64,000 bases of DNA from Candidatus Bathyarchaeota archaeon (GTDB lineage Archaea; Thermoproteota; Bathyarchaeia; 40CM-2-53-6). Below, one piece after another: positions 1,390-45,648 of this stretch. The notes beneath the pieces were generated by a model, which had not been told where the DNA came from, made no database searches, and saw only the letters and a program-made list of their open reading frames with translations. The stretch covers positions 112,375 to 176,374 of the forward strand of contig VBBS01000028.1 of assembly GCA_005888745.1 (NCBI GenBank). Reading direction: 5' to 3'. The number at the start of each line of letters is the position of its first letter. The stretch's first letter is position 1. Made by a program: the position numbers and the translations under genes.

Positions 1390-1483
1390 CTTCGGTCCAA
1401 CTATTCAGGTGGCTGAGAATGATATAAGAGTCCCATTCTGGATCGGTATGCGTTGTCGCAGTCTAGAATTCGGATGGAGATAG

Positions 1484-1699
1484 TTGTCTAAGTACCGACG
1501 CGAAGAGCCCGTAACAGTTCCAAAGCATCGACATTGTCCAGTATGCGGTACCCCCACGGATCTGAAGCAGGAATATTGCAGCGACAAATGCAGAGTAGCT
1601 GGAAAGAAGATTCAGAGGACCAAGATGAGAAATATCTTCGTAATAACCGGACTGGTCTTCGTATTCTACATCGCGTTTCTGCTCTTCGTCCCCAAGTAG
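1484..1699 (+). CDS. Small zinc-ribbon membrane protein, DUF2116-like
   Basis: A 71-aa protein starting at TTG 1484, with GGAGA about 6 nt upstream. It has a treble-clef-like zinc site (CPVCGTPTDLKQEYCSDKC, residues about 19-37), a basic linker and a single C-terminal transmembrane helix (about residues 49-68). This arrangement matches the archaeal DUF2116 zinc-ribbon family. It is likely a tail-anchored protein with the zinc ribbon in the cytosol. The function is unknown. It lies back to back with the YyaL-like gene and converges on pyrD. Confidence 0.7.
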   Translation: MSKYRREEPVTVPKHRHCPVCGTPTDLKQEYCSDKCRVAGKKIQRTKMRNIFVITGLVFVFYIAFLLFVPK

Positions 1700-1708
1700 A
1701 GCCTAACT

Positions 1709-2632
1709 CTAGATATGATCGGATTTATTCGCTCGTCCCACTATCTCGCGGACCGAGCGGTACCGGTTCTCTTGAAGGAATTTTGACATTCCTGCAGTGA
1801 TCTCTCTGAACACATCAACCCCTCTATACATCACCGCTGTTCCAACTTGGACTGCTGACGCTCCCGCCATCATCATCTCAACCGCCCCTCTCCAATCGGT
1901 TATTCCTCCGACACCAATGATCGGTATTCTAACAGCTGCCTTTGCTTGGTAGACTGTTCTTACAGCGAGGGAGTGGAGAGCGGGGCCAGAGAGGCCTCCG
2001 TAGACTCCCCCGAGAATTGGAGCGGCAGCGTCAACGTCTATGGCCATCCCTAGTGCTGTGTTGATGGCCGTGAGGGCGTCAGCCCCCGCGCCTTCAGCGG
2101 CCTTGGCAATTTCTTGAATGTTAGCAACGTTAGGCGTGAGCTTGACAATGACTGGCAGCTTGACTCTGGCCTTGACGACTCGTGTTACCTCGGAAACCAT
2201 TTCCGCTCTCTGCCCGATCTCCACTCCAACCTCCCTGACGTGAGGGCAGGACACGTTCAACTCTATTGCGACAGCACCGCCTTCCTCTCCCTTGGAAGCG
2301 GCTTCTGCGAATTCTTCTGCATCGAAGCCGAAGACGCTAGCGATGACCGGAACTCCAGCCTTCGATACCGCCGCCACTTCTTCACGCATCTCATCCATTC
2401 CCGGATTCGGAATCCCAAGAGCGTTAAGGTAGCCGCCAGGAACTTCGATAAAAGACGGGTTCCGATAACCCTCCCTGCCCTTCCGGTTGAACGACTTTGT
2501 AACCACTGCCCCCGCTCCTGCTCTTGAGGCGCGGACCATGACTTCGCTCGAAACTCCCAGAATTCCGGAAGCGAGAATCGTTGGGTTGGGGAGCTTTATA
2601 CCGGCAAACTCCACCGATAGGTCAGGTTCCAA
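1709..2632 (-). CDS. pyrD: Dihydroorotate dehydrogenase, class 1B catalytic subunit
   Basis: This 307-aa FMN-dependent TIM-barrel enzyme oxidises dihydroorotate to orotate in pyrimidine synthesis. It has the N-terminal PTILASGILG and VTKSFNRKGREG phosphate/FMN region, the active-site loop NVSCPHVR with Cys near residue 128 (Cys rather than Ser marks class 1B), the VKLTPN strand, INTALGMAID, and the C-terminal FMN phosphate loop GVGGITDWRGAVEMMMAGASAV cut here as GVGGITDW and MMAGASAV. Class 1B enzymes normally pair with PyrK, an Fe-S/FAD electron-transfer subunit; none is seen nearby. Length is normal for the family. It is divergent from nop5, with 92 bp between the starts. Confidence 0.95.
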   Translation of the reverse strand: MEPDLSVEFAGIKLPNPTILASGILGVSSEVMVRASRAGAGAVVTKSFNRKGREGYRNPSFIEVPGGYLNALGIPNPGMDEMREEVAAVSKAGVPVIASVFGFDAEEFAEAASKGEEGGAVAIELNVSCPHVREVGVEIGQRAEMVSEVTRVVKARVKLPVIVKLTPNVANIQEIAKAAEGAGADALTAINTALGMAIDVDAAAPILGGVYGGLSGPALHSLAVRTVYQAKAAVRIPIIGVGGITDWRGAVEMMMAGASAVQVGTAVMYRGVDVFREITAGMSKFLQENRYRSVREIVGRANKSDHI

Positions 2633-2724
2633 ATGCTGCCGAAACAGTATACAGGTGCCACGTTAATTATCTTCGCACCACACGAGCTACGCCGGAGCGA
2701 CTGGACTGAGACCGGCGAGCGATC

Positions 2725-4035
2725 TTGAAGGCGTACCTGGTCGATTCACCGGCAGGGCTTTTCCTGCTGGAAAAGACGGGCAAGATTGCTGAGAAGGCAC
2801 TTTTTCCCCGCCATCCCAAAGATGCTGCAGTGAAACTTAACGAGGTTCGCCAGGGAATACTGCCCGCTGAATTTTCTGAATTCGCGAACCGCTTGTCCCA
2901 GATGGGCTTGGAAAAGCTCACAGTAGACAACGAATATCTTGCAAAGATCTCGCGGACCATCTTGACTTCGGAAGTCATCTTGGATGAACGGGATGAAACG
3001 ATCTCAAAGTTGCGGAACCGGCTACCCAACATGCTCGTCCGATTTAGAATCGTGGAGTCAAAGGATGATTATGAGAAACTCGTTCACGATGTGTCAATGG
3101 AGCTCGCGCAGGCATCAATTGCAGAGACCGGTACAAAGCGAGACTTGTATGCAATCCAGACAGTCAGATGCATCGAGGACCTGGACAAGGTGCTGAATCT
3201 GCTTGCGGGACGAATACGAGAATGGTACGGCTTACACTTCCCTGAATTAGACAGGCTCGTGGAAAAACATGATAGCTACATTCGGCTCGTCCAAAGCCTT
3301 GGGACACGAGATTCATTCTCCCAAGAGTCTCTTGTCGAGCTGGGGATACCTCAAGAACGATCTAGAATAATCTCGGAAGCGGCTCAGAAATCGTCGGGCG
3401 CAGACCTCCCTCAACCCGATCTGCTCTGGCTACAGGAAGTCTGCACGACGGTTCTCCAGATGTACAAGCTGAGGGAGACTGCTGAAAGGTATACGGACAA
3501 GATCATGATAGAAGTCGCGCCGAACATGACGGGAGTCCTTGGCGCGGTTCTCTCTGCTAAGATCCTTTCAATGGCGGGAGGATTAGAGAACGTGGCTAAA
3601 ATGCCGGCCAGCACAATTCAAGTGTTGGGGGCAGAAAAGGCGCTTTTCAGAACCCTAAAAACGGGGGCTCGCCCTCCAAAGCATGGGATCATATTTCAGT
3701 ACGCGGCAATCCACCAATCCCCTAGGTGGCTGAGAGGCCGGATCGCCCGCGCAGTTGCAGGGAAACTCGCTATTGCCGCTCGAATGGATGCGTTCGGCGG
3801 ATCCAACGAAGGGGACAAGATGCGAACAGCGTTAGAGAAGAAGTTGGGCGATCTCAAAGATCGTTATCAAGGACAACCACCCAAGAAGAAGCATGGTACG
3901 CAATGGCGTCCAGCCCCACAGAAAGTTCGAAGGGATCTACCTGATCGGGAGGGAAGGGGAAGAGAAACTAGGTACCCGCAGCCTGGTACCGGGAGAGACC
4001 GTCTACGGCGAGGAAATCGTCAAAGCTGGCGATGA
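2725..4035 (+). CDS. nop5: Nop5/NOP56-family C/D-box RNP core protein
   Basis: Nop5 bridges L7Ae-bound C/D guide RNA and fibrillarin for 2'-O-methylation of rRNA and tRNA. The 436-aa product has the N-terminal fibrillarin-binding domain (MKAYLVDSPAGLFLLEKTGK), a coiled-coil, and the Nop domain with the invariant ending GAEKALFRTLKTGARPPKHG and HQSPRWLRGRIARAVAGKLA. The start is TTG 2725. The last approximately 47 codons (from 3893) overlap the fibrillarin gene in another frame and encode an Arg-rich tail rather than the usual Lys-rich KKE tail, so the true C-terminus may have been extended by loss of a stop. It is the first gene of nop5-flpA-UPF0216. Confidence 0.93.
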   Translation: MKAYLVDSPAGLFLLEKTGKIAEKALFPRHPKDAAVKLNEVRQGILPAEFSEFANRLSQMGLEKLTVDNEYLAKISRTILTSEVILDERDETISKLRNRLPNMLVRFRIVESKDDYEKLVHDVSMELAQASIAETGTKRDLYAIQTVRCIEDLDKVLNLLAGRIREWYGLHFPELDRLVEKHDSYIRLVQSLGTRDSFSQESLVELGIPQERSRIISEAAQKSSGADLPQPDLLWLQEVCTTVLQMYKLRETAERYTDKIMIEVAPNMTGVLGAVLSAKILSMAGGLENVAKMPASTIQVLGAEKALFRTLKTGARPPKHGIIFQYAAIHQSPRWLRGRIARAVAGKLAIAARMDAFGGSNEGDKMRTALEKKLGDLKDRYQGQPPKKKHGTQWRPAPQKVRRDLPDREGRGRETRYPQPGTGRDRLRRGNRQSWR

Positions 4036-4585
4036 AGAGTATCGGGTCTGGGACCCGTTCCGGAGTAAACTTGCAGCTGCGATCTTGAAAGGTTTGGGCA
4101 AGATCCCTTTCGCGAAGAAGTCTAAGGTCCTTTACTTGGGAGCTGCGAGCGGGACAACTGTCAGCCACGTAAGCGATATCGTAGGGCCTCAGGGGAAAGT
4201 ATTTTGCGTGGAATTTGCGCAGAGATCCTTTAGAGACCTAGTCAATAACGTATCGAAGAACAGGATAAATACAGTGCCGATCTTCGAGGATGCCCGGTTT
4301 CCCAGTAGATATAGAAGTCTAGTCTCCGAGGTAGATTCCGTATACTGCGACATCGCACAGCCGGACCAAGCAAGAATATTGGCTGAGAACCTTGATACAT
4401 TTCTTAAACAAGGAGACGATTTTCTCATGGCGATCAAAGCACGAAGCATTGATGTAACAAAAGATCCAAACGCCATTTTTCGCAGAGAAACCGAGATTTT
4501 GAAGAAGAGGGGGTACGCGATCGAAGAGATGGTTCGATTGGACCCTTTCGAGAAAGACCATTGCATGGTTCTAGGCGGGAAATAG
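3893..4585 (+). CDS. flpA: Fibrillarin-like 2'-O-methyltransferase
   Basis: The SAM-dependent catalytic subunit of C/D-box sRNPs, 230 aa, which is the normal archaeal length. The Rossmann motif I is VLYLGAASGTTVSHVSDIVG, followed by VFCVEFAQRS, VDSVYCDIAQPDQA and the catalytic-core Lys segment FLMAIKARSIDVTKD. The C-terminal LDPFEKDHCMVLGG is typical of the family. ATG 3893 lies inside the 3' end of nop5 (143-nt overlap), so the two are probably translated from one mRNA with coupling. The GTG start of the next gene follows the stop directly. Confidence 0.95.
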   Translation: MVRNGVQPHRKFEGIYLIGREGEEKLGTRSLVPGETVYGEEIVKAGDEEYRVWDPFRSKLAAAILKGLGKIPFAKKSKVLYLGAASGTTVSHVSDIVGPQGKVFCVEFAQRSFRDLVNNVSKNRINTVPIFEDARFPSRYRSLVSEVDSVYCDIAQPDQARILAENLDTFLKQGDDFLMAIKARSIDVTKDPNAIFRRETEILKKRGYAIEEMVRLDPFEKDHCMVLGGK

Positions 4586-5044
4586 GTGGCGCCGTTTCTC
4601 CTGGATCAGGACGGATTTTTTGACGTGATGCTTCAAAACGAATTGCGAAAGCTCAACACGCATCTTCCGAAGAATAGGAAGACCATTAGCGAATTGTTGG
4701 CCGAGGACCAACCAACTGTCTCTACGGTTGGCGGAGAGAAGGTCAGTATGAAAAAGACTGAAGTTGAAGCTTTGAGCGCAAAGCTGCCCGATCTACTACG
4801 TGACAAGGTGAGGCTTCCCATTGTCTTGTTGAGGAGGAGAGAGTTAGGACCTGGCGCGTTTGTATTGTTGGGAGATGATTACGAAGAATTTGCGCTTTCC
4901 AAGGTACTAGGTGAATATGATGGAACTCTTACAGATTTTCGGCGGTCAAGAGAATCTGCTACAGTTTTTTATAAGCCGCAGGTCAGTGAGCTGATGCGTC
5001 GTTTTCACTCTCTTATCGTAGTGGGATTCGGTCTCTCCGAGTGA
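4586..5044 (+). CDS. UPF0216 (DUF61) family protein
   Basis: A 152-aa protein whose GTG start follows the fibrillarin stop without a gap, so it is translationally linked to the C/D-box RNP genes. The family core is recognisable: LPKNRKTISELLAEDQP near residues 27-43, a Lys-rich segment, then DKVRLPIVLLRRRELGPGAF. UPF0216 is an uncharacterised archaeal family. Its place behind nop5-flpA suggests a link to RNA modification or RNP assembly, but that is inference from context only. Confidence 0.75.
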   Translation: MAPFLLDQDGFFDVMLQNELRKLNTHLPKNRKTISELLAEDQPTVSTVGGEKVSMKKTEVEALSAKLPDLLRDKVRLPIVLLRRRELGPGAFVLLGDDYEEFALSKVLGEYDGTLTDFRRSRESATVFYKPQVSELMRRFHSLIVVGFGLSE

Positions 5045-5161
5045 CCGCAAACTAAACGGATTGTATGACACTCGCCGCCCGGTTGGCTAGTGACGAGACT
5101 CCACGCGACCATTGAACGCTTATGTACGGCATGGTTCCCACGTAGCTAGCCGATAGCTCTC

Positions 5162-6253
5162 TTGCTTGAGGACAGCATTGCAAAGCGTGTCGTTCACACA
5201 TGTTTGAGGGTTCACGAAGATGACATGGTCCTCATCGAGACTTGGCAGCACACGGTCGACTTAGCCAGTGAAATAGCTCTTGAGTGCTATCGGACAGGCG
5301 CAAAGCCTCTCATCACACTCAACACCGATCGGCTCTGGTGGGGAACCCTTGCTGAGATTCCTGAACAATATATGCGCAAGATCCCTCGCCACGTTCTCAG
5401 CGCTGTCGACAATGTAACCGTCTGGATTGCGCTTGGAGGCCCTGAAGACCCTTCCAAGTTCCGCGACGTACCCGCCTCAAGACTAGAGATCCTTTTCGAA
5501 GGAGACAAACCCGTCCTCGACAAGACTTTCGAGAAAAAAGTTCGGACAGCCGAACTCCTTCTAGGTCACGTTACGCAGCAACGAGCTAAAGCTTACGGCT
5601 TCGATTATGATCGTTGGTTGAAAATGACCGAAGAAGCGATCAAGGTCGACTATCCGAAGCTCGCAGAGCTCGGAAGAAAAGTAGCGTTCCGCCTAGAGAG
5701 GGGAAGCAAAGTGCACATCACATCTAGAGGAGGCACCGACGTGAGGTTCGAGATAACAAAGAGACCCATTCACGTCCAGGATGGGATCGTTGATCAAGCT
5801 GACGTAGAACGCGGACTCGTTTCAACACAATTACCTTCAGGTAAGGTTGAGGTCGCGCCGCTGGAAGAATCAGCCCGAGGAACTGTGGTTTACGATCTGC
5901 CCAGAGCCCTGAAAGGAAGGCTAATCCAAGAGCTAAGACTAGATTTCGAGAAAGGTCGGATCAAGGAATTTCATGCCAAGAAGTATGAAGAAGTTTTCCG
6001 CGAAGTCTTTGAGGCAACTCAGGGCGACAGGGACAGGATAGCCCAGTTTACCCTGGGACTAAACCCGAAAGTGGATCTCATCGGATACACTACTGACGAG
6101 CTCTCTCTAGGTACCGTGACGATTGGCGTGGGAGCGAACAAGGGCATCGGCGGCAAGAACGACAGTAGCTTCACATTCTCGGGAACCATTACGAAACCTA
6201 CGGTTGAGATTGACGGGCAAACAATAATGGTTGATGGAAGAATGACTCTCTAA
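5162..6253 (+). CDS. M29-family (thermophilic) aminopeptidase
   Basis: A 363-aa protein resembling the M29 AmpS/PepS leucyl aminopeptidases, which are dimetal exopeptidases. The family pattern includes an N-terminal alpha/beta domain (VVHTCLRVHEDDMVLIETWQ), the central GSKVHITSRGGTDVRFEI stretch that begins the catalytic domain, LPSGKVEVAPLEESARGTVV, and the C-terminal IGYTTDELSLGTVTIGVGAN with ligands typical of the family. The canonical E...H...Y...H...D set is only partly visible: the usual HxxxG histidine region is altered, so activity is likely but not certain. It is monocistronic, with start TTG 5162. Confidence 0.8.
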   Translation: MLEDSIAKRVVHTCLRVHEDDMVLIETWQHTVDLASEIALECYRTGAKPLITLNTDRLWWGTLAEIPEQYMRKIPRHVLSAVDNVTVWIALGGPEDPSKFRDVPASRLEILFEGDKPVLDKTFEKKVRTAELLLGHVTQQRAKAYGFDYDRWLKMTEEAIKVDYPKLAELGRKVAFRLERGSKVHITSRGGTDVRFEITKRPIHVQDGIVDQADVERGLVSTQLPSGKVEVAPLEESARGTVVYDLPRALKGRLIQELRLDFEKGRIKEFHAKKYEEVFREVFEATQGDRDRIAQFTLGLNPKVDLIGYTTDELSLGTVTIGVGANKGIGGKNDSSFTFSGTITKPTVEIDGQTIMVDGRMTL

Positions 6254-35372: not shown

Positions 35373-36242
35373 TTAATGATTAGACGTGTCAATGATAGGA
35401 AGGAGATGGTCTTGTCCGAGTCTTACTGTTCCCTGTTTATTGGGGTATTTTCGTGGGCCTAGAGTTATGTTGGTAAATCCTATTCGCCGAAGTTCTTTCT
35501 CAGCTTGCTTCATCACGCCGTCCTGATGAAATAGGGGTAGCTCTTCTTGGGATACTTCGATCGCTGCAGCTGTTCCATGATGCCTGACCCTAATGTCTCG
35601 GGCACCACTCAAACGTTTGACAATAGATTCTGCTTCTCCGACCTGAGATAACTTTTGAACGGTGATCTCCTCGCCGTGAGGTATCCGGGACGAGAGACAC
35701 GGCATGGCTGGTTTGTCCCACACTTCAAGCCCGAGAAGTCGAGCGGTCTGTCGCACCTCTTTCTTGGACAAGCCGGCTTCTGCCAAGGGACTTCTTACAC
35801 CAACCTCCCGAGCGGCAAGAAGCCCCGGCCTAGTGTCACCGAGATCGTCGAGTTGGGTGCCATCAAGAACCGCTTCAAAACCGGACGTGTCGGCTTGACG
35901 TCGCAATTCACGATAGAGCGTGTCCTTGCAGTAGTAGCATCTGTTAGAGGGATTCGCTTTGTAGCTTGCATTGTGCACCTCATCGGTTGTCACAATAATG
36001 TGCCGGATGCCGATTTGCCTCGCAGTTTTCTGCGCGATTTCCATTTCCCCAGGTGCGAGAGATTCGGAGAGGGCAGTCACTGCGACAACGCGATCCCCTA
36101 ATGCCCTCCGTGCGAGCGCAGCGACGAGAGAGCTGTCCACTCCTGCGGATAAGGCAATGACAGCCCCGTCGAATTGGCTAATAATATGAACAACCTTTTC
36201 GATCTTCACCTGCAAATCGGTAGTCGCAGGGCTAGGCAACAT
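35373..36242 (-). CDS. larE: LarE-type ATP-dependent sulfur transferase
   Basis: A 289-aa PP-loop enzyme. LarE supplies sulfur for the nickel-pincer nucleotide cofactor. Motifs: PP-loop ALSAGVDSS (usually SGGVDSS), NPSNRCYYCK, and the sacrificial-cysteine region AMPCLSSRIPHGEEI. The start at ATG 36242 lies about 2 nt from the predicted start site of a TATA element shared with larB. LarB is divergent next to it. LarC and a racemase are not in the window, so the cofactor's final user is unknown. Confidence 0.88.
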   Translation of the reverse strand: MLPSPATTDLQVKIEKVVHIISQFDGAVIALSAGVDSSLVAALARRALGDRVVAVTALSESLAPGEMEIAQKTARQIGIRHIIVTTDEVHNASYKANPSNRCYYCKDTLYRELRRQADTSGFEAVLDGTQLDDLGDTRPGLLAAREVGVRSPLAEAGLSKKEVRQTARLLGLEVWDKPAMPCLSSRIPHGEEITVQKLSQVGEAESIVKRLSGARDIRVRHHGTAAAIEVSQEELPLFHQDGVMKQAEKELRRIGFTNITLGPRKYPNKQGTVRLGQDHLLPIIDTSNH

Positions 36243-36265
36243 ATTCAAGACACTCCCTTGTGGCA

Positions 36266-36273
36266 ACTTAAAC
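36266..36273. promoter_or_regulatory. Bidirectional TATA-like element, larE/larB
   Basis: ACTTAAAC (plus) / GTTTAAGT (minus). Measured 26 bp from its centre, the predicted start sites are about 36296 (+) and 36244 (-), next to GTG 36294 of larB and ATG 36242 of larE. Both genes would then be leaderless. Confidence 0.5.
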
Positions 36274-36293
36274 AGTTTACGCGCAAAAAGAAA

Positions 36294-37073
36294 GTGCCCG
36301 ACTTGTCCTCACTTGAGAAATTTGAGCGGAGTCGAAAACGTTTCGAGAGAAAGGATAGACTTCTTGCTATTGCAAGCTTGTCTCGGTTTGCGAAACTTGA
36401 CATTGGCCGCGAAAAACGCAAAGGACTTCCTGAGGTTATCCTCGCCGAGGGCAAGCTCGCCACCGATGTGGCGAAGATTACCCAGGCGATGCTAAAACGG
36501 ACTGGTCGTGCCGTTGTAAGTCGTTTGACAGGTTCCCAGGTCAAGGCTGTTAGATCTATCATCGGAAAAGAGGCTAAGATTGAATACTTTTCACGCTCTC
36601 GAATGATGGTTGTAAAGTCGCACAGCTACACGCCTCGGCAAAGTGGAGGGAGAGTGGGGATATTGACCGCGGGGACCTCTGACATTCCGGTAGCTGAGGA
36701 GGCGGAGGTCATCGCTCGCGAGATGGGTTGCGAGACTAGATCCTTCTTTGATGTGGGAGTAGCCGGGATTCATCGCTTGTTCGAGCCCGTCCGCGATCTT
36801 CTCAAATGGGAGGCCGATGTCATCCTTGTGGTTGCGGGTCGTGAAGGGGCGCTCCCTACAGTCGTCGCGGGGATTGTGGATGTCCCGGTCATAGGAGTCC
36901 CCACATCTAGAAGCTACGGGTTTGGAGAAAGAGGGCTCTCTGCCCTGGCCGCTATGCTTCAATCATGTTCTCTAGGAATGGCTGTGGTCAATATCGACGG
37001 AGGAGTTGGTGCGGGAGCGGTCGCCGCACTGGTCGCAAACCGTGTTGGCGAATACCGGACTAGGGTGGCCTAG
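36294..37073 (+). CDS. larB: LarB-type carboxylase/hydrolase (PurE-like)
   Basis: A 259-aa protein. LarB carboxylates nicotinic acid adenine dinucleotide at C5 and hydrolyses it, the first step of nickel-pincer cofactor synthesis. Signatures: FAKLDIGREKRKGLPEVILA at the start of the conserved part, then the PurE-like domain RVGILTAGTSDIPVAEEAEV, DVGVAGIHRL, VVAGREGALPTVVAG and PTSRSYGFGERGLSAL. GTG 36294 fits the TATA position; the frame is open to 36174, but this would overlap larE. Confidence 0.88.
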   Translation: MPDLSSLEKFERSRKRFERKDRLLAIASLSRFAKLDIGREKRKGLPEVILAEGKLATDVAKITQAMLKRTGRAVVSRLTGSQVKAVRSIIGKEAKIEYFSRSRMMVVKSHSYTPRQSGGRVGILTAGTSDIPVAEEAEVIAREMGCETRSFFDVGVAGIHRLFEPVRDLLKWEADVILVVAGREGALPTVVAGIVDVPVIGVPTSRSYGFGERGLSALAAMLQSCSLGMAVVNIDGGVGAGAVAALVANRVGEYRTRVA

Positions 37074-37099
37074 CGCCCGCACTCAGGAGTAGCAGAGCC

Positions 37100-38137
37100 T
37101 TGGGTGTTGATCTTGGGGACATAATTTCTCGATCCAAGATCTCGCTTGACGAGTTTGCAGGAAAAACCTTCGCGGTCGATGCCTACAACATCCTCTACCA
37201 GTTTCTCGCGATAATTCGAGGGCCCACTGGAGAGCCCTTGATGGACCGGCAGAGTAGAGTTACCAGCCACTTGAGCGGGCTTCTTTACCGAACTACGAAC
37301 TTGGCAGAGAGAGGCATCAGACTCGCGTATGTTTTCGACGGGAAACCCCCTAGTCTCAAAGACACAGAGATCAAGCGAAGGCAGGTCATCAAAGTCGAGG
37401 CCACAACAAGATACGAATCCGCTCTCTCAACTGGTAAGTTTGAGGAGGCGAAGCGGTACGCTCAGGCAACTTCCAGTCTTAAGGATTTGATGATTGATGA
37501 TGCTCACAGACTTCTCCGGTACCTAGGCGTTCCTGTTGTCCAAGCTCCATCTGAAGGAGAAGCCCAAGCGGCCTACATGGCAGCTCGCGGGGATGTTTGG
37601 GCCGCAGTCAGCCAGGATTACGATTCTCTTCTTTTCGGGGCCCGGAGGCTTGTCCGGAATCTAGCAATCAGCGGAAAAAGAAAGCTACCCATGCGGGAGG
37701 CCTACGTGCAGGTAGACCCGGAACTAGTAGACTTAGCATCAACCTTGCAAGCTCTCCAGCTTTCCCGAGAACAGCTTGTGGATTTGGGGATTCTGATTGG
37801 AACAGATTTCAATCCGGACGGCTTCAGGGGCATAGGGCCCAAGACGGCGCTGAAGCTTGTCAAGGAGCATGGAAGGATCGAGAGAATTGCCGAAACGAAC
37901 AAGGAAGTGGTTCCCCCGCCCGAGTTGGACAGGATTAGGGAGATATTTCTGAAGCCCGCCGTCACCTCAAACTACACTTTGGAGTGGCGTAGATCCGATG
38001 TTGAATCTCTTGTGCGGTTCCTCTGCGGAGAGAGAGATTTCAACGAGGAAAGAGTCCGCACAGCCGTGGAGAGAGCGAGGATTGCGATGGTCAAAGAGAG
38101 TGGTAAGAAGACGCTTGAGTCATTCTTTGGCAGTTAA
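37100..38137 (+). CDS. fen: Flap endonuclease 1
   Basis: A 345-aa structure-specific nuclease that removes 5' flaps in replication and repair. The N domain shows VDAYNILYQF and YVFDGKPPSLK; the I domain shows APSEGEAQAAYMAARGDVWA, SQDYDSLLFGARRLVRNLA and GTDFNPDGFRGIGPKTALKL (H3TH). The C-terminus KKTLESFFGS is a PCNA-interacting (PIP) box. All catalytic acidic residues that I can place are kept. It starts at TTG 37100, 27 bp behind larB, and overlaps the end of the PCMT region by 4 bp. Confidence 0.95.
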   Translation: MGVDLGDIISRSKISLDEFAGKTFAVDAYNILYQFLAIIRGPTGEPLMDRQSRVTSHLSGLLYRTTNLAERGIRLAYVFDGKPPSLKDTEIKRRQVIKVEATTRYESALSTGKFEEAKRYAQATSSLKDLMIDDAHRLLRYLGVPVVQAPSEGEAQAAYMAARGDVWAAVSQDYDSLLFGARRLVRNLAISGKRKLPMREAYVQVDPELVDLASTLQALQLSREQLVDLGILIGTDFNPDGFRGIGPKTALKLVKEHGRIERIAETNKEVVPPPELDRIREIFLKPAVTSNYTLEWRRSDVESLVRFLCGERDFNEERVRTAVERARIAMVKESGKKTLESFFGS

Positions 38138-38814
38138 TCGCTGAAGCCGTATCTTCCGATGAGGGGGACGAATGCGACTCCCCCTAGGAATTTCCGGTCC
38201 AAGGTTCCATCAGGCTTCTTGCGGACCCGGATGAGTTCTTGCGGGAACATTTTTCCACCGACTGGAACAACAAGGACTCCGTCTGGCTTCAATTGTTCCA
38301 GCAAAGTCGGCGGAATCTTGGGGGCTGCAGCTGTGACGAGTATTCTGTCGTATAGGGCTCTCTCAGCGTAACCTAAGGACCCATCGCCTTGAACCAGTGT
38401 GACCCGTTTAGCATATCCCGCTCGATCCAAGTTGCTTCTCGCGATCTCGACCAGTTTGTCAACATATTCGATCGCGAAAACATGTCCCTCTTCGCCGACA
38501 ATTTCCGCAATGGTGGCAGCATGGTATCCACTTCCAGCACCCACTTCGAGCACCTTCATTCCATGTCGAAGCTCCAACGCCTCGTCCATTATGGCCACCA
38601 TGTAACGCCCGGCCGGTCAGCCGAGTGGCGCACTGATCGTCTGGCCATGCTCCGTTGGCAGTGGGGTATCGTTGTACGCGTACTGTCGCATATGGGTAGA
38701 CACGAACAGTTCTCTCGGAACCTTTCTCATAGCATCGATGACCTCGGGGGTTTTGAGGAGTCCTTCTGCAATTAGGGCCTGGACCATTCTCTCTCTTTCA
38801 ATTGCGAAATTCAC
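38134..38814 (-). pseudogene. pcm: Protein-L-isoaspartate O-methyltransferase, split by in-frame insertion
   Basis: Two frames encode the two parts of PCMT: 38617-38814 (ending PLPTEHGQTISAPLG) and 38134-38601 (starting MVAIMDEALELRHG with motif I VLEVGAGSGYHAATI). They are in the same frame, separated by 24 nt where the family has one codon; the extra 21 nt carry a TGA. Removing exactly 38604-38624 restores the canonical SAPHMVAIM junction. Nothing else is damaged. It could be a recent pseudogene, a two-piece enzyme made by re-initiation at ATG 38601 (16 nt after the stop), or a spliced insertion. The normal role is repair of isoaspartyl residues with SAM. Confidence 0.75.
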
Positions 38815-38890
38815 GGACCTTGCCTAAACCTCCTGGCAGTAATCTGTAGCTGAGCATATTAGACTCCTACGGTTGACGGCATACGTCTCG

Positions 38891-39310
38891 ATGAATTTCA
38901 AGTTCTACGCACGCGGCCATCCAGCTGTCTCATCAACCCATCCGACGACCTTGGAACTCACAAGGGACACTGATCTTGGCAAAAACGGAGATTGCATCGT
39001 TGCGGCGGGATGTTCCGTAGGATTGGTAGATTTGCCTGAACCTATGAAAAACGCTCTCTCCAGTGGGGCCTGTAGAGCGCGCCTGACTCTTACGGTCGGC
39101 ATCCATCAATTCGTGGTCGAGGGTCGAGGTGCCCATGGGTTAACGCTCTCCCATCCATCGGACATCGTGGTCAGGAAAAGCGGTTTCATATCTGACAGGA
39201 CCCTGATGGTGCACGCAGATCGGGCGGCAGCGGATATTCCGCGGTCATTCGTGGAATTGCTTCAAGACCCTAACCGGAAAGTGTTGGTCGAACTAGTCAC
39301 GGAGATCTAA
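38891..39310 (+). CDS. DUF371 family protein
   Basis: About 139 aa from ATG 38891, which sits about 8 nt after the start site predicted by ATATTA at 38856; TTG 38873 is an alternative. The archaeal DUF371 pattern is clear: FYARGHPAVSSTHPTTLELT near the N-terminus, then GDCIVAAGCSVGLVDLP, and HGLTLSHPSDIVVRKSGFIS. The function is unknown. It converges with trm5 (4-bp overlap). Confidence 0.8.
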   Translation: MNFKFYARGHPAVSSTHPTTLELTRDTDLGKNGDCIVAAGCSVGLVDLPEPMKNALSSGACRARLTLTVGIHQFVVEGRGAHGLTLSHPSDIVVRKSGFISDRTLMVHADRAAADIPRSFVELLQDPNRKVLVELVTEI

Positions 39311-40407
39311 GCTGGCCCAATTTTCGCGTCTAGGCCAATCTGCCACTTCATCGGAGCGACTCCTCGTACTTTGCGTGTCGCCATGATTTTTTCGAGCTTC
39401 CAAACTGAATTAGCCATGGCACCTGCCAATTCTTTCCTAGCCTTTGACTCGCTGTCTGCGCCCTCTGCGAATGTGTAGTAGTGAATCATTCCTCCATCGC
39501 GTGCAAGCGCTTCAGATGCGGGTTCGAGAAACTCCCTTGCCTGAGAGGGGTGGTTCATTATTACTCGAGTGGCTATCCCTTCGAGGTTGTTTTTGACGAC
39601 GACTCGTGCGTCGCCGGACCACACCTTTATCCTGTCTTGGACCTTGTTCATTCTCGCGTTTTCTTCGATCAGCTTGGCGGCTTCGGGGTTGGCATCGATG
39701 GCGTGGATTCGTACGTCGTTCAATCTTTTCGCTATTAGTATTGAGAAGGGTCCAACGCCAGCGAACATGTCTACCACGCATTCTCCTGGCCGGACTTGTT
39801 CGGCCACTCTCCCATGCTCCCCCGATAGACGTGGGGAGAAGAAGGCTTTCGCGATGTCGATCTTGAGTCGACACCCCAACTCCTTGTGAATTGTCTGGGT
39901 TCGATTGACACCTAGAACGTGGTGAAGAGGCCTCAATCGCCTGTTGTCGGTCACTGGTCCAGCTTTTGAGTAGACCGACTTGACGTTCTTGTGCACTTTC
40001 ATCAGCGCTTCGGCGATGTCCTTTTCGAACGGTTCTGCTTTGGGAGAGAGTTCTATGATAGCGATGTCGCCGATCACATCGAACGAGTTCGAAACAAGTG
40101 GAATGATGCTCGAGGGGAGCTGTTGCGCTAGAACTTTGCCTAGCGAACCAACGGTTTCTGATCTAAGCCGAAATTCTTCGCGCAGTAGACTCTGTTGTCC
40201 TAGGACGCTTTCAAGCAGTTCTTGTTCTTGTGGTTTCGGTGCTCGAGATAGTGGCACATGCAGTTGATCGTCTAACGCTTGAGGTGTGAGTTTTCTGTTT
40301 AGTAGTCTCAGCTTCGCGAGGAGTTGGATCGCTTTCTCTCCTTGTTTCTTTGGGACACTTAGAGAGATGCTCTCCTGGAGGAGGTCGGAATCTGGGTTGC
40401 GAATCAA
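39307..40407 (-). CDS. trm5: tRNA (guanine37-N1)-methyltransferase Trm5
   Basis: A 366-aa class I methyltransferase that makes m1G37 next to the anticodon. The central part shows HHVLGVNRTQTIHKELGCRL cut to 20 residues, then DIAKAFFSPRLSGEH, SAM motif I VVDMFAGVGPFSILIAK, DANPEAAKLIEEN and the active-site-region RVIMNHPSQAREFL (NHP in place of the common NLP). The C-terminus holds ATRKVRGVAPMKWQIGLD. A less likely alternative is the wyosine enzyme Taw2-like branch. Confidence 0.9.
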   Translation of the reverse strand: MIRNPDSDLLQESISLSVPKKQGEKAIQLLAKLRLLNRKLTPQALDDQLHVPLSRAPKPQEQELLESVLGQQSLLREEFRLRSETVGSLGKVLAQQLPSSIIPLVSNSFDVIGDIAIIELSPKAEPFEKDIAEALMKVHKNVKSVYSKAGPVTDNRRLRPLHHVLGVNRTQTIHKELGCRLKIDIAKAFFSPRLSGEHGRVAEQVRPGECVVDMFAGVGPFSILIAKRLNDVRIHAIDANPEAAKLIEENARMNKVQDRIKVWSGDARVVVKNNLEGIATRVIMNHPSQAREFLEPASEALARDGGMIHYYTFAEGADSESKARKELAGAMANSVWKLEKIMATRKVRGVAPMKWQIGLDAKIGPA

Positions 40408-40423
40408 CTGTGGGACTCGGCAT

Positions 40424-40936
40424 TTATCCTCTGCTGGTTCGTGTCTTGAGGCGCTTTAGAAAATCCAGATCTGCCAGTGCAACCTCGGCGGATAATCGCA
40501 CGTCCTCATCAGGGTCTTGTAGTCTGAGGATCAATCCTGAGCGGGCCGTCTCTTCTCCGATGGAACCCAGAGCCACAGCCGATTCATGTCTTACGAGTAC
40601 GCTTTCGTCGTTTCCCATGGCGTCTAGGAGGGCGGGCACTGCTGACTTGAACTCCAGTTGGCCGAGTGCAAATGCTACCTCGTGTCTGACGAGCGGGCTA
40701 GGATCCTGTTTCAGTGTCTCGCAGAGCGCAGGGACTGCCCTTTCATCTTTCATATCCGCGAGCATGCAGACCGCGTGTATTCGGAGAAGCAAGCTTGGTC
40801 TGCCGTCGAGGACTATTCTGAAGAAGTCAATGTCTCCTTTCGAGAACGCCCATTCCATCCTTTCGAGGGTCTCAAAGTCTTTGGAGTAATCCGGACCAGC
40901 TTTTGCGGGCTCGTCCTTTGCAATTGCCTTCAACAC
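40424..40936 (-). CDS. HEAT-repeat protein resembling half of deoxyhypusine hydroxylase
   Basis: A 170-aa protein with four to five HEAT-like repeats. Two consecutive repeats contain His-Glu pairs: SPLVRHEVAFALGQLEFKSA near residue 85 and SVLVRHESAVALGSIGEE near residue 118. This HE-x(5)-LGQ / HE-x(5)-LGxIG pattern closely resembles the diiron-binding repeats of eukaryotic DOHH, which has four HE motifs in two symmetric halves. A dimer could supply four. Alternatively it belongs to the broad PBS-lyase HEAT group without metal. It lies upstream of trm5 on the same strand (16-bp gap). Confidence 0.75.
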   Translation of the reverse strand: MLKAIAKDEPAKAGPDYSKDFETLERMEWAFSKGDIDFFRIVLDGRPSLLLRIHAVCMLADMKDERAVPALCETLKQDPSPLVRHEVAFALGQLEFKSAVPALLDAMGNDESVLVRHESAVALGSIGEETARSGLILRLQDPDEDVRLSAEVALADLDFLKRLKTRTSRG

Positions 40937-41042
40937 AATCTCAACATCGTAGGCTCCGGGAAGTGGTCACGACTAGTTGATGGTGAAGGTTGGCACAATC
41001 TGGTAATCACTAGGCAGGCAGACGAGCCGGACACGGATTATT

Positions 41043-41186
41043 TTAGCTCGATGCTGTAGTCTTGTCATTAGCTTCGCCGCTCATAGCGCGCTCGTAGCAC
41101 TTAGGACAATAGGGCCCATCGTACTGTCCGTGTTTGGAACATGAGGGTCGCCTTTGCTCTTCCTCGACAGATTTTCGAAGTTTCAC
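41043..41186 (-). CDS. Small zinc-finger protein (47 aa), putative
   Basis: A GTG-initiated frame reads VKLRKSVEEEQRRPSCSKHG and continues QYDGPYCPKCYERAMSGE to a TAA at 41043. The C-x2-H ... C-x2-C arrangement could bind one zinc. I do not recognise a family. It is short, and codon content alone does not prove it; it fills an otherwise empty gap between the HEAT and ankyrin genes. Confidence 0.4.
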   Translation of the reverse strand: MKLRKSVEEEQRRPSCSKHGQYDGPYCPKCYERAMSGEANDKTTASS

Positions 41187-41257
41187 CTGACTAGCCTCCC
41201 CTCTGACGTGAGGCGCTGGACCACGATTCTGCGCATTGGTTGAGACTGTGGGTTTGA

Positions 41258-41845
41258 CTATTCTTTGGCGCCGTGGTTCTTGAGGAGTTGGACAATCATT
41301 TCCTGTCCTCTATCGACAGCCACCGAAAGCGGAGTTTTTCCCTGAAAATTCTTCGCATTCAAGTCTGGGCTTGCGTTTTCGACCAGCCAGACGACCAGGT
41401 CATAGTAACCCCGTGTAACTGTGTTTTGGAGAGCCAAAGATGATCCTGTCTTTGCCCCGTTTTGGAACAGATACTGGACTAGTTCGAGATCGCCACTCCA
41501 TGCAGCATGGGTCAGAAGCGGAATGCCGTGTGCTCCCGTCGAGTTGATACTATCAGGATTGTCTCTAATTCTTCTCTCAACTTCTTCTTTGCGTCCAAGC
41601 ATTGCCGCAGTGCAAATTTCGAGAGGCGCTCCCTTTTCAAGAAGGTATTCTGCCACAGTAACGCTGCCCACTTGAGCGGCGCCTTGGATCGCGGTCTCGC
41701 GGTCGCTCTCAGTCCAAGCGTAGGCCACGTTGAGCAAGTCCGGTTTCTCTGCAAGCATTTTCCTTACCTTCTCTAGGTTTCCGTGGCCGGCGATTACGAA
41801 CTCACGGACTAGGTCGGTTGAGAGAGGCATATTCGTCGTTTGCAC
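41258..41845 (-). CDS. Ankyrin-repeat protein
   Basis: A 195-aa protein consisting of ankyrin repeats: SDRETAIQGAAQVGSVTVAE, GIPLLTHAAWSGDLELVQYL, a degenerate repeat around residue 140, and GKTPLSVAVDRGQEMIVQLL near the C-terminus. The first 40 residues form a cap. It is cytosolic and likely a protein-binding scaffold. The partner is unknown. Its 5' end lies about 100 bp from the 15-bp tRNA-derived repeat at 41942. Confidence 0.85.
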   Translation of the reverse strand: MQTTNMPLSTDLVREFVIAGHGNLEKVRKMLAEKPDLLNVAYAWTESDRETAIQGAAQVGSVTVAEYLLEKGAPLEICTAAMLGRKEEVERRIRDNPDSINSTGAHGIPLLTHAAWSGDLELVQYLFQNGAKTGSSLALQNTVTRGYYDLVVWLVENASPDLNAKNFQGKTPLSVAVDRGQEMIVQLLKNHGAKE

Positions 41846-41941
41846 AAGGATAGGTCTGTCTTCGCGAGCTATAACCGTTCGGAGAGGAATCTTTGTGAGA
41901 ACTGCTTCGCTATGTCGGGGAAGTAGTGGAGGAAGGTGCGG

Positions 41942-41956
41942 TGGCGGGCCCGGAGG
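41942..41956. repeat. 15-bp copy of tRNA-Lys 3' end (att-like)
   Basis: Exact match to 43194-43208. It is not part of a second tRNA: no TTCAAAT T-loop or acceptor 5' strand accompanies it on the minus strand. Confidence 0.65.
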
Positions 41957-42290
41957 ACTCCAGTGTATATTATGGGGAGGATTCTTACCGACTTTCCATT
42001 GTCGTCAGCAGAACGCAGTTTGTCGGATCATTTCCCGGAACTTTCCAGTATAACTAATGCTAGCGTCTAATACCGGAAATTGAGTCACTTAATCCGAAGT
42101 ATCTTATGGAACCCTTAGCGCCCGTACCCAGTAGGAACCTCCTGTGTTCTCCTTGTCATTTCAATACTTCCCGTAGCGGTAGGGTCGCCTCCTATACCAT
42201 GTCTTCAGGAGCACTTTCACCTCACTGTTCACTGTAAAGCATAGCGATTCTTTACCGTGCAACAAATCAGAGGGACTTGCCCCAGTAATT

Positions 42291-43133
42291 TTGAATCAAA
42301 GGCGAGGACAAAGGTGGCGGAGCCTAGAGTCTAGAACTCAGCTCTATCATCTTGTTCATGAAATGCGAAAATCCGGTTTATCCTACAGACGAATGCAAGC
42401 GAAGATTTTCGAGGAGACCGGAACCAATCTATCTAGAAGTTCCATCAGTTATTGGTTGACGGGTACGCATCACCCATCTGGCTCGCTCAATCGATTCGAC
42501 GCAAAACCCTGCCCAGAGCTCTCCTATGTGATTGGCGTGGCTCTGAGCGATGGCAACGTCAATACGTACGAATACGATAGACAGATAATGCTGAGCGTGA
42601 CCGACAGAGATTTCGCGGACGAATTCAGCCAATGCCTGGCAAAAGTCCTCGGCAGAAGAACAGCTTACAAGGTAAGATGGAGCGAGAAAAGGGCCCGTTG
42701 GATCGTTCAGGGCTGCAGCGTACTACTATACAATTTTCTCTCCTCAAACCTATCGCATCTGAGAAAGTGGATCGAACATTGTGACAGATGCAAATCTGTC
42801 TTTCTCAGAGCGTTCTACGATGGTGAAGGAAGCATAAGCGGTCATAATCTCACGGTCTATAATACTGAAAGAGACTTATTGGTTTACGTTCGGTGCCTGC
42901 TAGATAGCTTCGACATCGAGACTTTGCCTTTGAGTGTGATGACACGAGCCGGGACGAGGCTTACAGATCCCAAGACAGGAAAAACTTATTTCAGAAAAGA
43001 CGATTGCTTCCGCTTCAGTATTAGAACTCGAAGCCTGCTGACATTCAGTCAATCGATAGGGTTCACCATCAAAAGGAAACAAACAAGGCTTAGCCAAGCG
43101 TGTCTCGAGATCAAGCAAAGATCCCCTCTTTGA
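42291..43133 (+). CDS. HTH + LAGLIDADG endonuclease-like protein
   Basis: A 280-aa protein. The N-terminal part (residues about 15-62) contains an HTH-like segment (EMRKSGLSYRRMQAKIFEET and LSRSSISYWLTG). Two LAGLIDADG-type helices follow: YVIGVALSDGNV near residue 80 and FLRAFYDGEGSIS near residue 180, each with the acidic residue (D, E) expected of an active monomeric double-motif endonuclease. It is free-standing, on the opposite strand to and 60 bp from the intron-bearing tRNA-Lys gene. The start TTG 42291 is uncertain. It may cleave an intron-less allele of a tRNA or the att region; this is inference. Confidence 0.8.
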   Translation: MNQRRGQRWRSLESRTQLYHLVHEMRKSGLSYRRMQAKIFEETGTNLSRSSISYWLTGTHHPSGSLNRFDAKPCPELSYVIGVALSDGNVNTYEYDRQIMLSVTDRDFADEFSQCLAKVLGRRTAYKVRWSEKRARWIVQGCSVLLYNFLSSNLSHLRKWIEHCDRCKSVFLRAFYDGEGSISGHNLTVYNTERDLLVYVRCLLDSFDIETLPLSVMTRAGTRLTDPKTGKTYFRKDDCFRFSIRTRSLLTFSQSIGFTIKRKQTRLSQACLEIKQRSPL

Positions 43134-43193
43134 GTCGACAGGACCTCCCTCGTTGAGGCGGGGTCATGAGCGGGCGGTTCCGCTATGATTTTA

Positions 43194-43345
43194 TGGCGGG
43201 CCCGGAGGGATTTGAACCCTCGACCATTCCCCGAACGAGTCGCATGGACCCGTCCTTCAGGTTAAGAGCTTCAGCCTTGGAGTCTGCTGCTCTACCTGGC
43301 TGAGCTGCCCGACTAGACCAGCACGCGTGTCCGGTTTACGGGCCC
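43194..43345 (-). tRNA. tRNA-Lys (anticodon CTT), apparently three introns, CCA encoded
   Basis: Acceptor strands GGGCCCG (43339-43345) and CGGGCCC pair perfectly; discriminator G and CCA follow. T arm: GAGGG-TTCAAAT-CCCTC. D arm: GCTC-AGCCAGGTA-GAGC. The anticodon loop CTCTTAA gives CUU. The gene is 152 nt, 75 more than the 77-nt mature form. Best-fitting introns: 31 nt after position 8/9 (43306-43336), 14 nt between 30 and 31 (43270-43283) and 30 nt in the variable region (within 43225-43256). The spliced anticodon stem GCAGG/CCTGA has four pairs plus a G27-A43 mismatch. Exact splice sites are ambiguous by 1-3 nt, and I could not confirm bulge-helix-bulge motifs by eye. Confidence 0.85.
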
Positions 43346-43575
43346 ACGAACCCGCCGAAGGCTCGGTCCCGGCCGAATTTCTAATAAGGATTACCGTTTT
43401 CTGAAGGAAATCGACTCGAAATTCGATAAATGTGGGATGGTCTTTTCTAGAGCTCAACTCTAGCCTCTGATGATTGTCGCGTTCATCTCAGCTCGCTGAG
43501 AGAATGGTTCGTGTCCCTGTCCCGCTTCCGTTTCGGTAACACAAGCCTTCCCGGACACCCATCTGCAGCGGCTTC

Positions 43576-45648
43576 GTGGAAGATGCTGCAGGGGGTAAGA
43601 ATTTCTTGAGACCTTACGTCATAATCCTACTTCTATTGCTTGCAACCCCCTTCGTATTTGTCGCGCAAGTTCATGGAGTCGCCCCATACTCTCTTGGAAT
43701 CAACCCATCCAACATAAGCTTGGGGAATACTGTCACGATAACGATGACGATCTCCGGCGGTTCGCGAAACACTGCATACGGCGTTACACTTGGAGTTCAG
43801 AAGCCGAATGGCACCGGTTTGGCGGTCGCTAACCAGGTCATATCCACCGATAACAGGGGGGCGGGAGTTTTGTCGATTCAATACCCGAACGCAGGTTCAT
43901 GGACCGCGCTAAACGGAACTGTCGCCACCAATGTGGGTGGAGTCTACAACGTCGCGGTCAATCAGACTTCGCCGACAAATATCGGAACGGTGGCAACCGG
44001 GCAGTTCACTGTGATATCACAGATGAGCGTGGTCGTGTCTCAACCTACTTCAGGGACTATCGTGCAGAGAGGGCAGAGTCTAACGATCAGTGTGGCGGTT
44101 GCGAACTCTCTTGGAGCAGTGAGTGGAGCTACCGTGACGGCTGACACTCCCTCGAATGGACAACTTGTGCTTCCTCAGGTCAGCTCGACTAACGGGGTTT
44201 ACTCGATAGTCTACCAGATTCCGATGAACGATCCCCTTGGTTCGTGGACGATAATAGTCGAGGCGAGAGACTCCAGCGGAAACTCGGGGACGAGTCTACC
44301 AGTTACAGTCAGTGTTGCAAAGAGCGACTTGTTTGTGGACGCCATGGTCACTTATAATTCGAAGGGTGTTCCTTCTACAAGTTTTTCGAGTGGTGACAGT
44401 CTCTATCCTTACTTTCGAATAAAATATTCAGGCTCTAGCGGCGCGTTTCTTGCATCCGGGCAATACGTGGTCTCCGTCAAGAATCCGTCAGGGGTCACCG
44501 TTGCAAACCTGACAGCGGTCTATGATGCGAACCGTCTAGGATTCTACACTCCAACCGGGTATTCCGTCTCGACTTTCGACCCGGGTGGTCCCTGGACTGT
44601 TGGAGTCGATGCTAACAGTCTCAACGATGGTTTTGGTAACACTGGACCAGACATCGCCACCTCGATCAGAGTCGATATAGTCACTTCTCCCTTAGGGTAC
44701 CTCCCGTTTGTGATCGGTGGTGTCGTGGCTCTTCTCGGGGGAATCGTTGTGTTGAAACGGTACGATACGTCTCTTGCTGGTTTCGAGCATCTCGAACAGA
44801 TGATTGGCGGTCCGATTCCTCGTGGGTCGAGTCTTTTGCTGCTCGGTGATCCAGGCAGTGGTAAGACTGTATTGTCCTATGAGTTGTTGCATGATGAGCT
44901 TGAGGCTGGAAGACCCTGTGCCTTGTTGTCGTATGATGCGTTTCCCGAGGACGTTCAGGCTCGAATGGGCGAGTTCGGTTGGGACATTATCTCGCATCTC
45001 CGCAAGGGGCGATTGAAGATAATTGACTGTTATTCTGGGCTGGCGGGACAGGGTGAGGGTGCTCTGAGAGATCCGTCGGATCTTACAGAGTTGAACATCC
45101 AGGTCACCTCGTTCATAACCAAGGCGAAGAATGTTCCTGTGACTCTCATTCTCGATTCTTTGACGCCTATTTTTAACGGGGTTGAAGGGAAGCAGGCGAT
45201 CAATTTCTTGCAGACAGTGGGCGCGAAGGTGAAGAAGACTGGTGGCTTGTTTATTCTTACGGCCTCGAGGGGGGCTGTGCCTGAGGATTCTATCGCGAAG
45301 ATCAAGAGCATTGTGGACGGGGTTATCGAGCTTACTTTGGTCAGGTCGGGAAGAAAGGGGGTGAGGTTCTTGTCGGTTTTGAAAATGGAACGGCGACGGA
45401 TCGCGTCTGAGAGGGTTACGTTTGAGATAGAGAGAGGCCGTGGACTGGTCTTCCGAGTCTCTCGATTCGGAATTCTCCGGAAAAAGATAGCCCAGTTAAA
45501 GGATCGAACTCCGATCCTCTCAGCAAGAAAAGAGGCTCCAAGCGTTGCGGCGCCTGCGAAGGTCGAAGTCAAGCGTACGGACGAAAGAGGGAGGGATGGT
45601 AAGAGCGCCGAATCTTCGCCTAAGCCTGCTGGCCCGAAACAACGCTAG
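43576..45648 (+). CDS. Transmembrane KaiC/RecA-like ATPase with extracellular domain
   Basis: A 690-aa fusion. A signal/membrane segment (YVIILLLLLATPFVFVAQVH, about residues 14-33) is followed by about 335 extracellular residues with Ig/macroglobulin-like beta repeats (VVVSQPTSGTIVQRGQSLTI, then TIIVEARDSSGNSG), a membrane helix near residues 372-393 (FVIGGVVALLGGIVVLKRYD), and a cytosolic RecA-superfamily domain of KaiC type: Walker A GDPGSGKT near residue 420 and Walker B VTLILDSLTP near 523. A basic Ser/Pro/Lys tail ends the protein. It may be a sensor or a surface-structure ATPase. Start GTG 43576. DphB follows, but probably has its own promoter. Confidence 0.85.
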   Translation: MEDAAGGKNFLRPYVIILLLLLATPFVFVAQVHGVAPYSLGINPSNISLGNTVTITMTISGGSRNTAYGVTLGVQKPNGTGLAVANQVISTDNRGAGVLSIQYPNAGSWTALNGTVATNVGGVYNVAVNQTSPTNIGTVATGQFTVISQMSVVVSQPTSGTIVQRGQSLTISVAVANSLGAVSGATVTADTPSNGQLVLPQVSSTNGVYSIVYQIPMNDPLGSWTIIVEARDSSGNSGTSLPVTVSVAKSDLFVDAMVTYNSKGVPSTSFSSGDSLYPYFRIKYSGSSGAFLASGQYVVSVKNPSGVTVANLTAVYDANRLGFYTPTGYSVSTFDPGGPWTVGVDANSLNDGFGNTGPDIATSIRVDIVTSPLGYLPFVIGGVVALLGGIVVLKRYDTSLAGFEHLEQMIGGPIPRGSSLLLLGDPGSGKTVLSYELLHDELEAGRPCALLSYDAFPEDVQARMGEFGWDIISHLRKGRLKIIDCYSGLAGQGEGALRDPSDLTELNIQVTSFITKAKNVPVTLILDSLTPIFNGVEGKQAINFLQTVGAKVKKTGGLFILTASRGAVPEDSIAKIKSIVDGVIELTLVRSGRKGVRFLSVLKMERRRIASERVTFEIERGRGLVFRVSRFGILRKKIAQLKDRTPILSARKEAPSVAAPAKVEVKRTDERGRDGKSAESSPKPAGPKQR

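Follow-up and report, generated by a model that had tools for sequence, protein, structure and literature searches.

tRNA genes are classic landing sites of integrase-bearing elements. In archaea, tyrosine-recombinase elements of the SSV, SNJ2 and pTN3 types restore an uninterrupted tRNA, with the att site in the 3' part of the tRNA or, for pTN3-like elements, in its 5' half, according to the accessible portion of PMC8371274; the element described here differs in having no recombinase gene and in consisting of about 1.2 kb with one endonuclease gene. A similar layout is found in fungal mitochondria, where endonuclease mORFs are located in Glomus atp6, cox2, nad3 and atp9 and in Allomyces atp6: in the part of that account available to us (PMC3630166), a LAGLIDADG or GIY-YIG gene lies at the 3' end of the host gene, the native end is displaced downstream, and the inserted end keeps the host gene whole. 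Those hosts are mitochondrial protein genes with long inserted ends unlike the native ones (PMC3630166, same part), whereas here the hosts are archaeal chromosomal tRNA genes, the end is identical over 15 bp and the gene is opposite in strand to the tRNA. The phage T4 enzyme SegB is likewise a free-standing homing endonuclease among tRNA genes and has a tRNA intergenic region as its target, but it is a phage enzyme of the GIY-YIG family, and tRNA-end repeats are not described in the accessible part of the report (PMC2988022). Finally, I-DmoI and the monomeric LAGLIDADG enzymes have fold and motif acids in common with our protein, although I-DmoI is intron-encoded (title of structure 1b24) and our protein is free-standing with an added N-terminal helical part. 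We found no account of archaeal endonuclease-only elements framed by tRNA ends in the literature searched, a search that lay largely outside subscription journals.

We analysed a stretch of 64,000 nucleotides from a Candidatus Bathyarchaeota archaeon, hereafter the window. The last 15 nt of its tRNA-Lys(CUU) gene, TGGCGGGCCCGGAGG, are found at 41942-41956 and at 43194-43208 with a spacing of 1,252 bp (Table 1), as an earlier sequence-only reading had claimed, and a genome-wide search for further copies, which that reading had advised, gave no other exact copy in the 2.2-Mb assembly and four further places with one mismatch. The layout is att-like, with identical 15-bp repeats and an intact tRNA as in tyrosine-recombinase elements. 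It would also suit the mORF type, in which the element supplies the host gene end; at tRNA-Lys both ends are identical, so the origin of each is indistinguishable. The claim that the enclosed DNA holds one gene and no recombinase stood as well: an integrase gene is absent from 41942-43208, and besides the LAGLIDADG gene only two ORFs of at least 60 aa lie wholly within the unit, both antisense inside that gene and with no Pfam match over cut-off.

Table 1 Features of the tRNA-Lys(CUU) locus (window positions)
Feature	Position	Strand	Basis
Distal 15-mer, repeating the tRNA-Lys 3' end; displaced old tRNA end or target duplication	41942..41956	-	Exact repeat; single in the empty site of G001
Left non-coding part of the element, 334 bp	41957..42290	.	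Little sequence conserved among relatives
Gene for a double-motif LAGLIDADG protein with predicted HTH, 280 aa	42291..43133	+	Pfam, predicted structure, alignment
Right non-coding end of the element, short, 60 bp	43134..43193	.	
Proximal 15-mer, forming the 3' end (with CCA) of the intact tRNA-Lys	43194..43208	-	
tRNA-Lys(CUU), target gene, still intact	43194..43345	-	Joined exons fold; orthologues in 16 relatives
tRNA intron 3, about 29 nt	43228..43256	-	Spliced fold; relatives
tRNA intron 2, about 14 nt	43270..43283	-	Spliced fold; relatives
tRNA intron 1, about 31 nt, ends placed to within 1-2 nt	43306..43336	-	Spliced fold; also in element-free relatives

Such a repeat is rarely obtained with shuffled sequence: two or more places with at most two mismatches to the 15-mer were present in 1 of 100 shuffles of the window, and a repeat of this length within 700 bp before the gene was present in 0 of 500 dinucleotide shuffles. 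As a control we used 30 tRNA candidates of the window's genome, the 3' end being placeable in 16 and not in 14. The longest downstream repeat of the tRNA 3' end (within about 1.5 kb) was 6-9 bp in 15 of these 16 tRNAs, three of which (L075, L076 and L083) themselves adjoin an endonuclease relative, and 15 bp was reached at tRNA-Lys only. When the left non-coding part was searched for a conserved RNA in an alignment of 12 copies, little conservation was found beyond same-target copies; a CACTTTCA-like motif was seen there. Rfam matches were located only inside the tRNA, all below gathering scores.

The locus was anchored in 17 relatives of the genus by the KaiC-like gene to the right of the tRNA (43576-45648). 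The tRNA-Lys end was visible in 16 of them, the contig of the 17th being cut, and none of the 16 had an endonuclease match beside tRNA-Lys in the flank available. Fourteen longer flanking stretches were compared with the window: the left flank aligned to 41883 or beyond in eight, five shared parts of it at lower identity, and in one the contig ends. Positions 1-5898 of the G001 stretch (L103) correspond to 36078-41956 of the window with 86.5% identity, and positions 5884-6107 to 43194-43417 with 94.6% identity. These two alignments overlap by exactly the 15-mer, which is single-copy there, and the endonuclease gene is absent. In seven other stretches the left flank aligned to 41883-41905 and was followed by the tRNA without the endonuclease gene, with about 40-70 bp in between in six of them. 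The sequence-only reading had named, as support for mobility, an empty site in which the 15-mer is single and the gene missing and, as a refutation, the gene's presence here with diverged flanks in all relatives; G001 has one 15-mer, no gene and both flanks aligned, which supports mobility, and the gene lies beside tRNA-Lys in 0 of 16 relatives. Because G001 shows the empty site, we regard it as confirmed at the level of sequence comparison that a 1,252-bp one-gene unit entered beside the 3' end of tRNA-Lys(CUU). The closest relative by the anchor gene, G016 (85%), has no element at its tRNA-Lys; therefore, the simplest history would be a gain in the window's genome, the alternative being loss from all other relatives. 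In G006 (L102 6767-7510, G006:C14), a different gene, for an FkbM-type methyltransferase (PF05050), separates tRNA-Lys from the conserved left flank, and we noticed no tRNA repeat there.

Pfam LAGLIDADG_3 (PF14528) matches the 280-aa protein in two stretches, and its predicted structure (mean pLDDT 84.9) has three N-terminal helices followed by a two-motif LAGLIDADG fold. The nearest structure in Foldseek was I-DmoI (1b24; E 1.6e-8, TM 0.66 on target). In a profile alignment, D87 and E179 correspond to D21 and E117 of I-DmoI, which we take to be the catalytic acids, and both are invariant in the 8 open copies of the family described below. Thus, by motifs and acids, the protein is a double-motif LAGLIDADG homing endonuclease with putative cleavage activity. 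It had been described earlier as an HTH plus double-motif LAGLIDADG protein: the double motif is borne out by the two PF14528 stretches, whereas Pfam names no HTH in the 280-aa protein and our reading of the N-terminal part as a predicted HTH comes from the model. Among the 14 copies of the family, 8 are open and 6 broken (with some doubt about where the G016 C60 copy starts), a mixture that fits a gain-decay cycle. In three pairs of open Arg-UCG copies, dN/dS was 0.18-0.28 at a dS of 0.5-1.0. The G000 (the window's genome) and G016 copies at one tRNA are 45-75% identical in 20-aa windows up to residue 120 and 95-100% identical thereafter, with a tail of 33%; we read this mosaic as a recombination boundary inside the endonuclease gene. 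In L028 1414-2364 (G000:C49), the endonuclease frame enters the antisense of the tRNA end, so that the tRNA gene encodes the last residues of the protein.

Thirteen places with at least 40% identity, the window's included, were found in 61 genomes, and L015 was added by a separate scan, giving 14 copies; the 13 copies other than the window's have 40-62% identity. The earlier reading had recommended a search for paralogues beside other tRNAs, and indeed 13 of the 14 copies lie directly downstream of an opposite-strand tRNA whose 3' end faces the gene end, with the T-loop 24-138 bp past the gene match. In the 14th (G011), two extra copies of the tRNA-Arg(UCG) end precede the intact tRNA, that is, tandem repeat units, which were seen at two tRNAs. 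The targets are Lys(CUU), Lys(UUU) and Arg(UCG), to which reading by eye adds Arg(CCG), a Cys-like tRNA and another tRNA of the GGGCCCG type; some of the isotypes read by eye are named differently by ARAGORN. A tRNA-end repeat of 10-15 bp is present in 6 of the 14 copies, about 310-415 bp before the gene. Shuffling covered five of these six (L016, L018, L020, L021 and L022), with a repeat as good in 0-5 of 500 shuffles; the sixth is L198. L030 is borderline (9 bp, 24 of 500 shuffles), and 7 of the 14 copies have no clear tRNA-end repeat. Measured from repeat to repeat, the units at other tRNAs are 1,064-1,264 bp long (967 bp for the most divergent one); in six repeat-bearing relatives, 284-401 bp precede the gene match and 52-82 bp follow it. 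At Arg(UCG) and Arg(CCG), the left copy can be followed by eye into the T-arm, with decayed similarity.

The C49-type tRNA is occupied in G000 and G016 and is without a protein match in all 8 other genomes examined. Occupied and empty versions of one site among relatives, as expected of a homing element, are thus found at tRNA-Lys (empty in G001) and at this tRNA, as judged from the alignments. In the tree, the three target groups with at least two rows each form one group, with support of 93/93 to 100/100. Such grouping by tRNA target agrees with proteins that mostly spread between copies of the same target, or descend vertically, and jump only rarely; at the Arg-UCG and C49 sites it may be plain vertical descent. 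The tRNA counts leave out the long-frame matches in G016:C11, G005:C18, G050, G179, G189 and G218, which are possibly inteins, and also G048 (L025). G019 (L247) has no tRNA T-arm directly downstream. A second, partly degenerate copy of tRNA-Arg(CCG) was noticed 3.9 kb beyond the occupied one in L180 4666-4792 (G004:C50).

More divergent relatives were also found at tRNAs, with 9 of 9 loci of groups B, D and E adjoining one, group D on the 5' side. In 3 of 3 genomes, group B (about 30% identity) adjoins the 3' end of another tRNA; two of these loci have repeats of 11-12 bp, and the third has none. In 5 of 5 genomes, the group D gene is upstream of a same-strand tRNA. Two of these have a displaced copy of the tRNA 5' end on the side of the gene away from the tRNA, matching at 17 and 14 of 19 positions (equalled in 0 and 3 of 200 shuffles, respectively); the other three lack such a copy. 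In group E (G005, 1 of 1), a copy of the Arg(UCG) 3' end matching at 33 of 35 bp lies 967 bp from the tRNA, and a single 296-aa ORF lies between the repeats, leaving 25 and 16 bp beside the gene. The LAGLIDADG_3 and HTH Pfam matches of this ORF (E 5e-4 and 1e-4) are below the curated cut-offs, and one further match, within an 851-aa frame, was found in 256 genomes of the class. Unlike most loci, which were found through gene similarity, the group E gene was reached via the repeat; because it was found in this way and not from protein similarity, it provides independent support. Group C (L033, L034, L044, L024 and L244, in five genomes) is at a tRNA in 0 of 5 loci and stands before a protein gene; by eye, the DNA that follows is one zinc-ribbon/OB-type gene in four genomes.

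The target tRNA had been said to hold three introns, and indeed ARAGORN draws a full tRNA-Lys(ctt) once these are removed, whereas it finds no tRNA in the unedited window. All three introns are present in 15 of 15 fully readable relatives, none of which has the endonuclease gene beside the tRNA; their presence was read by eye against the spliced fold, and the tRNA-Lys of the 16th relative is masked. The earlier suggestion that the endonuclease spread the introns is therefore not supported here: since the element-free readable relatives have introns, introns and element are unlinked at tRNA-Lys. Collaborative homing of tRNA introns and the neighbouring endonuclease had looked attractive because most neighbouring tRNAs have introns (by eye), and it was dropped for tRNA-Lys on the same count of intron-bearing, gene-free relatives. 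The picture at tRNA-Arg(UCG) is mixed: the tRNA is intronless beside a broken gene in G014 (L195 5281-5357, G014:C104; the occupied relatives are intron-bearing), intronless with no match in G006 and G010, and intron-bearing without an endonuclease match in G001, G009 and G012. With the Rfam tRNA model, only 13 tRNAs of G000 were found at E ≤ 1e-3, and a threshold of E ≤ 10 gave 43 candidates; this low yield is probably due to many intron-bearing tRNA genes, some with introns outside the anticodon loop.

Two repeat-framed stretches have no match to the endonuclease groups: L198 6091-8390 (G011:C58) and L188 1601-3400 (G016:C45). L198 6653-8391 holds a methyltransferase gene (PF01596) and a GNAT acetyltransferase gene (PF00583) and runs from an element-type left end to the intact tRNA-Arg(UCG); this content is possibly cargo or a later insertion. 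L188 1693-3346 lies between two copies of the Arg(CCG) tRNA-end word.

The explanation we prefer, and hold to be probable by a modest measure, is a one-gene homing element with a tRNA gene end as its host site, where the putative endonuclease would cut and the tRNA end would be restored on entry. The endonuclease is the best mobility candidate because no other gene is present either in the window's unit or in the framed unit that diverges most. It would cut an unoccupied tRNA gene in its T-arm/acceptor part, and the broken end with the tRNA body would pair with an occupied tRNA gene and copy the tRNA end and the element. Copying would stop in the distal tRNA-end copy, which would pair with the other broken end, leaving a whole tRNA and the old end pushed aside as the distal repeat. 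Since T-arm/acceptor sequence is common to tRNAs, rare jumps to other tRNA genes might be permitted. The mosaic G000/G016 pair fits recombination between copies. Direct repeats are not known as a usual trace of homing. The tRNA-Lys end is unchanged after insertion and the same as the empty ones, and therefore a site wholly inside the tRNA should still be cut; either the site lies beyond the tRNA, or occupied tRNAs are still targets, or another enzyme does the joining. The tandem repeat units found at two tRNAs hint at the second of these possibilities. More tentatively, and with somewhat less confidence than doubt, we propose that HTH-LAGLIDADG proteins alone may suffice to enter and re-form tRNA ends (3' ends in groups A, B and E, 5' ends in group D).

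The main rival, unlikely in our view although to be taken seriously, is a passenger cassette that entered via a tyrosine recombinase acting in trans, the repeats being att sites and the endonuclease cargo. Tandem arrays also occur with archaeal tyrosine-recombinase integrases. Most of our loci were located by gene search, so that "always with the gene" is partly built in, and repeat-framed stretches without an endonuclease match exist; therefore, a recombinase moving various cargo is still a conceivable agent. Archaeal integrases also leave an intact tRNA, and att sites no longer than the acceptor end (SNJ2) and pTN3-like sites in the 5' half have been described (PMC8371274, accessible part). 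PF00589 matches were found in 17 of 18 genomes of the genus. Against this rival, only a single PF00589 match (a 202-aa frame, 28.1 bits) was found in the window's genome, where four of the five endonuclease relatives adjoin tRNAs; G001 has none, and group E has just 25 and 16 bp beside its gene. Frames of 202-234 aa with similar scores are present in six relatives, and we infer that the window's frame is a housekeeping Xer-type protein. The single weak match makes this rival less likely, although a recombinase could possibly be lost or unassembled in the window's genome, which is 93% complete.

It is improbable that the endonuclease break was followed by end joining of element DNA, which would give a transposon-like target duplication and not homologous copying. 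Repeat lengths that differ among tRNAs (9 to 35 bp) and the clean duplication of 15 bp at tRNA-Lys, for which a matching empty site exists, would agree with it, but the mosaic protein pair points to recombination, and LAGLIDADG enzymes are known to leave 4-nt overhangs. Still less credible is a larger integrative element decayed to its endonuclease gene. This was one of two options of the sequence-only reading, the other being that the endonuclease itself drives insertion; the latter fits better, since the near-equal unit sizes around the same gene at other tRNAs would demand an unexpected convergence by decay, even though two further genes do lie between repeats at one tRNA side (L198 6653-8391). 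A chance repeat beside an old, vertically kept gene has a negligible probability: groups B and D each occur at one tRNA kind only, as under vertical descent, but the empty site of G001 with exactly one 15-mer refutes this for the tRNA-Lys locus, in line with 0 of 500 shuffles and with control tRNAs at 6-9 bp.

In the present case, an integrase-type scar (an intact tRNA with a displaced fragment) frames a unit whose sole gene is an endonuclease. If the cutting is true, this would be a second, recombinase-free route to the occupation of tRNA genes, would connect archaeal chromosomes with the mORFs that replace gene ends in fungal mitochondria, and would provide endonucleases aimed at conserved tRNA ends; how an occupied tRNA escapes re-cutting would then be a testable question. 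If HTH-LAGLIDADG proteins suffice, they would define a class of integrative elements with one gene and no recombinase, for which tRNA genes serve the same purpose as they do for viruses and plasmids. In the genomes searched, this kind of element is confined to one archaeal family and one MAG titled Thaumarchaeota. When 256 genomes of the class were searched with a profile of the eight open copies, 13 had a match at E ≤ 1e-10: ten belong to the window's own family, and in the other three the match lies in a frame of at least 900 aa. A contig scan with six peptides of one protein, which detects close relatives only, gave one relative (L015), and a scan of viral contigs gave one weak match, L257, with 28% identity.
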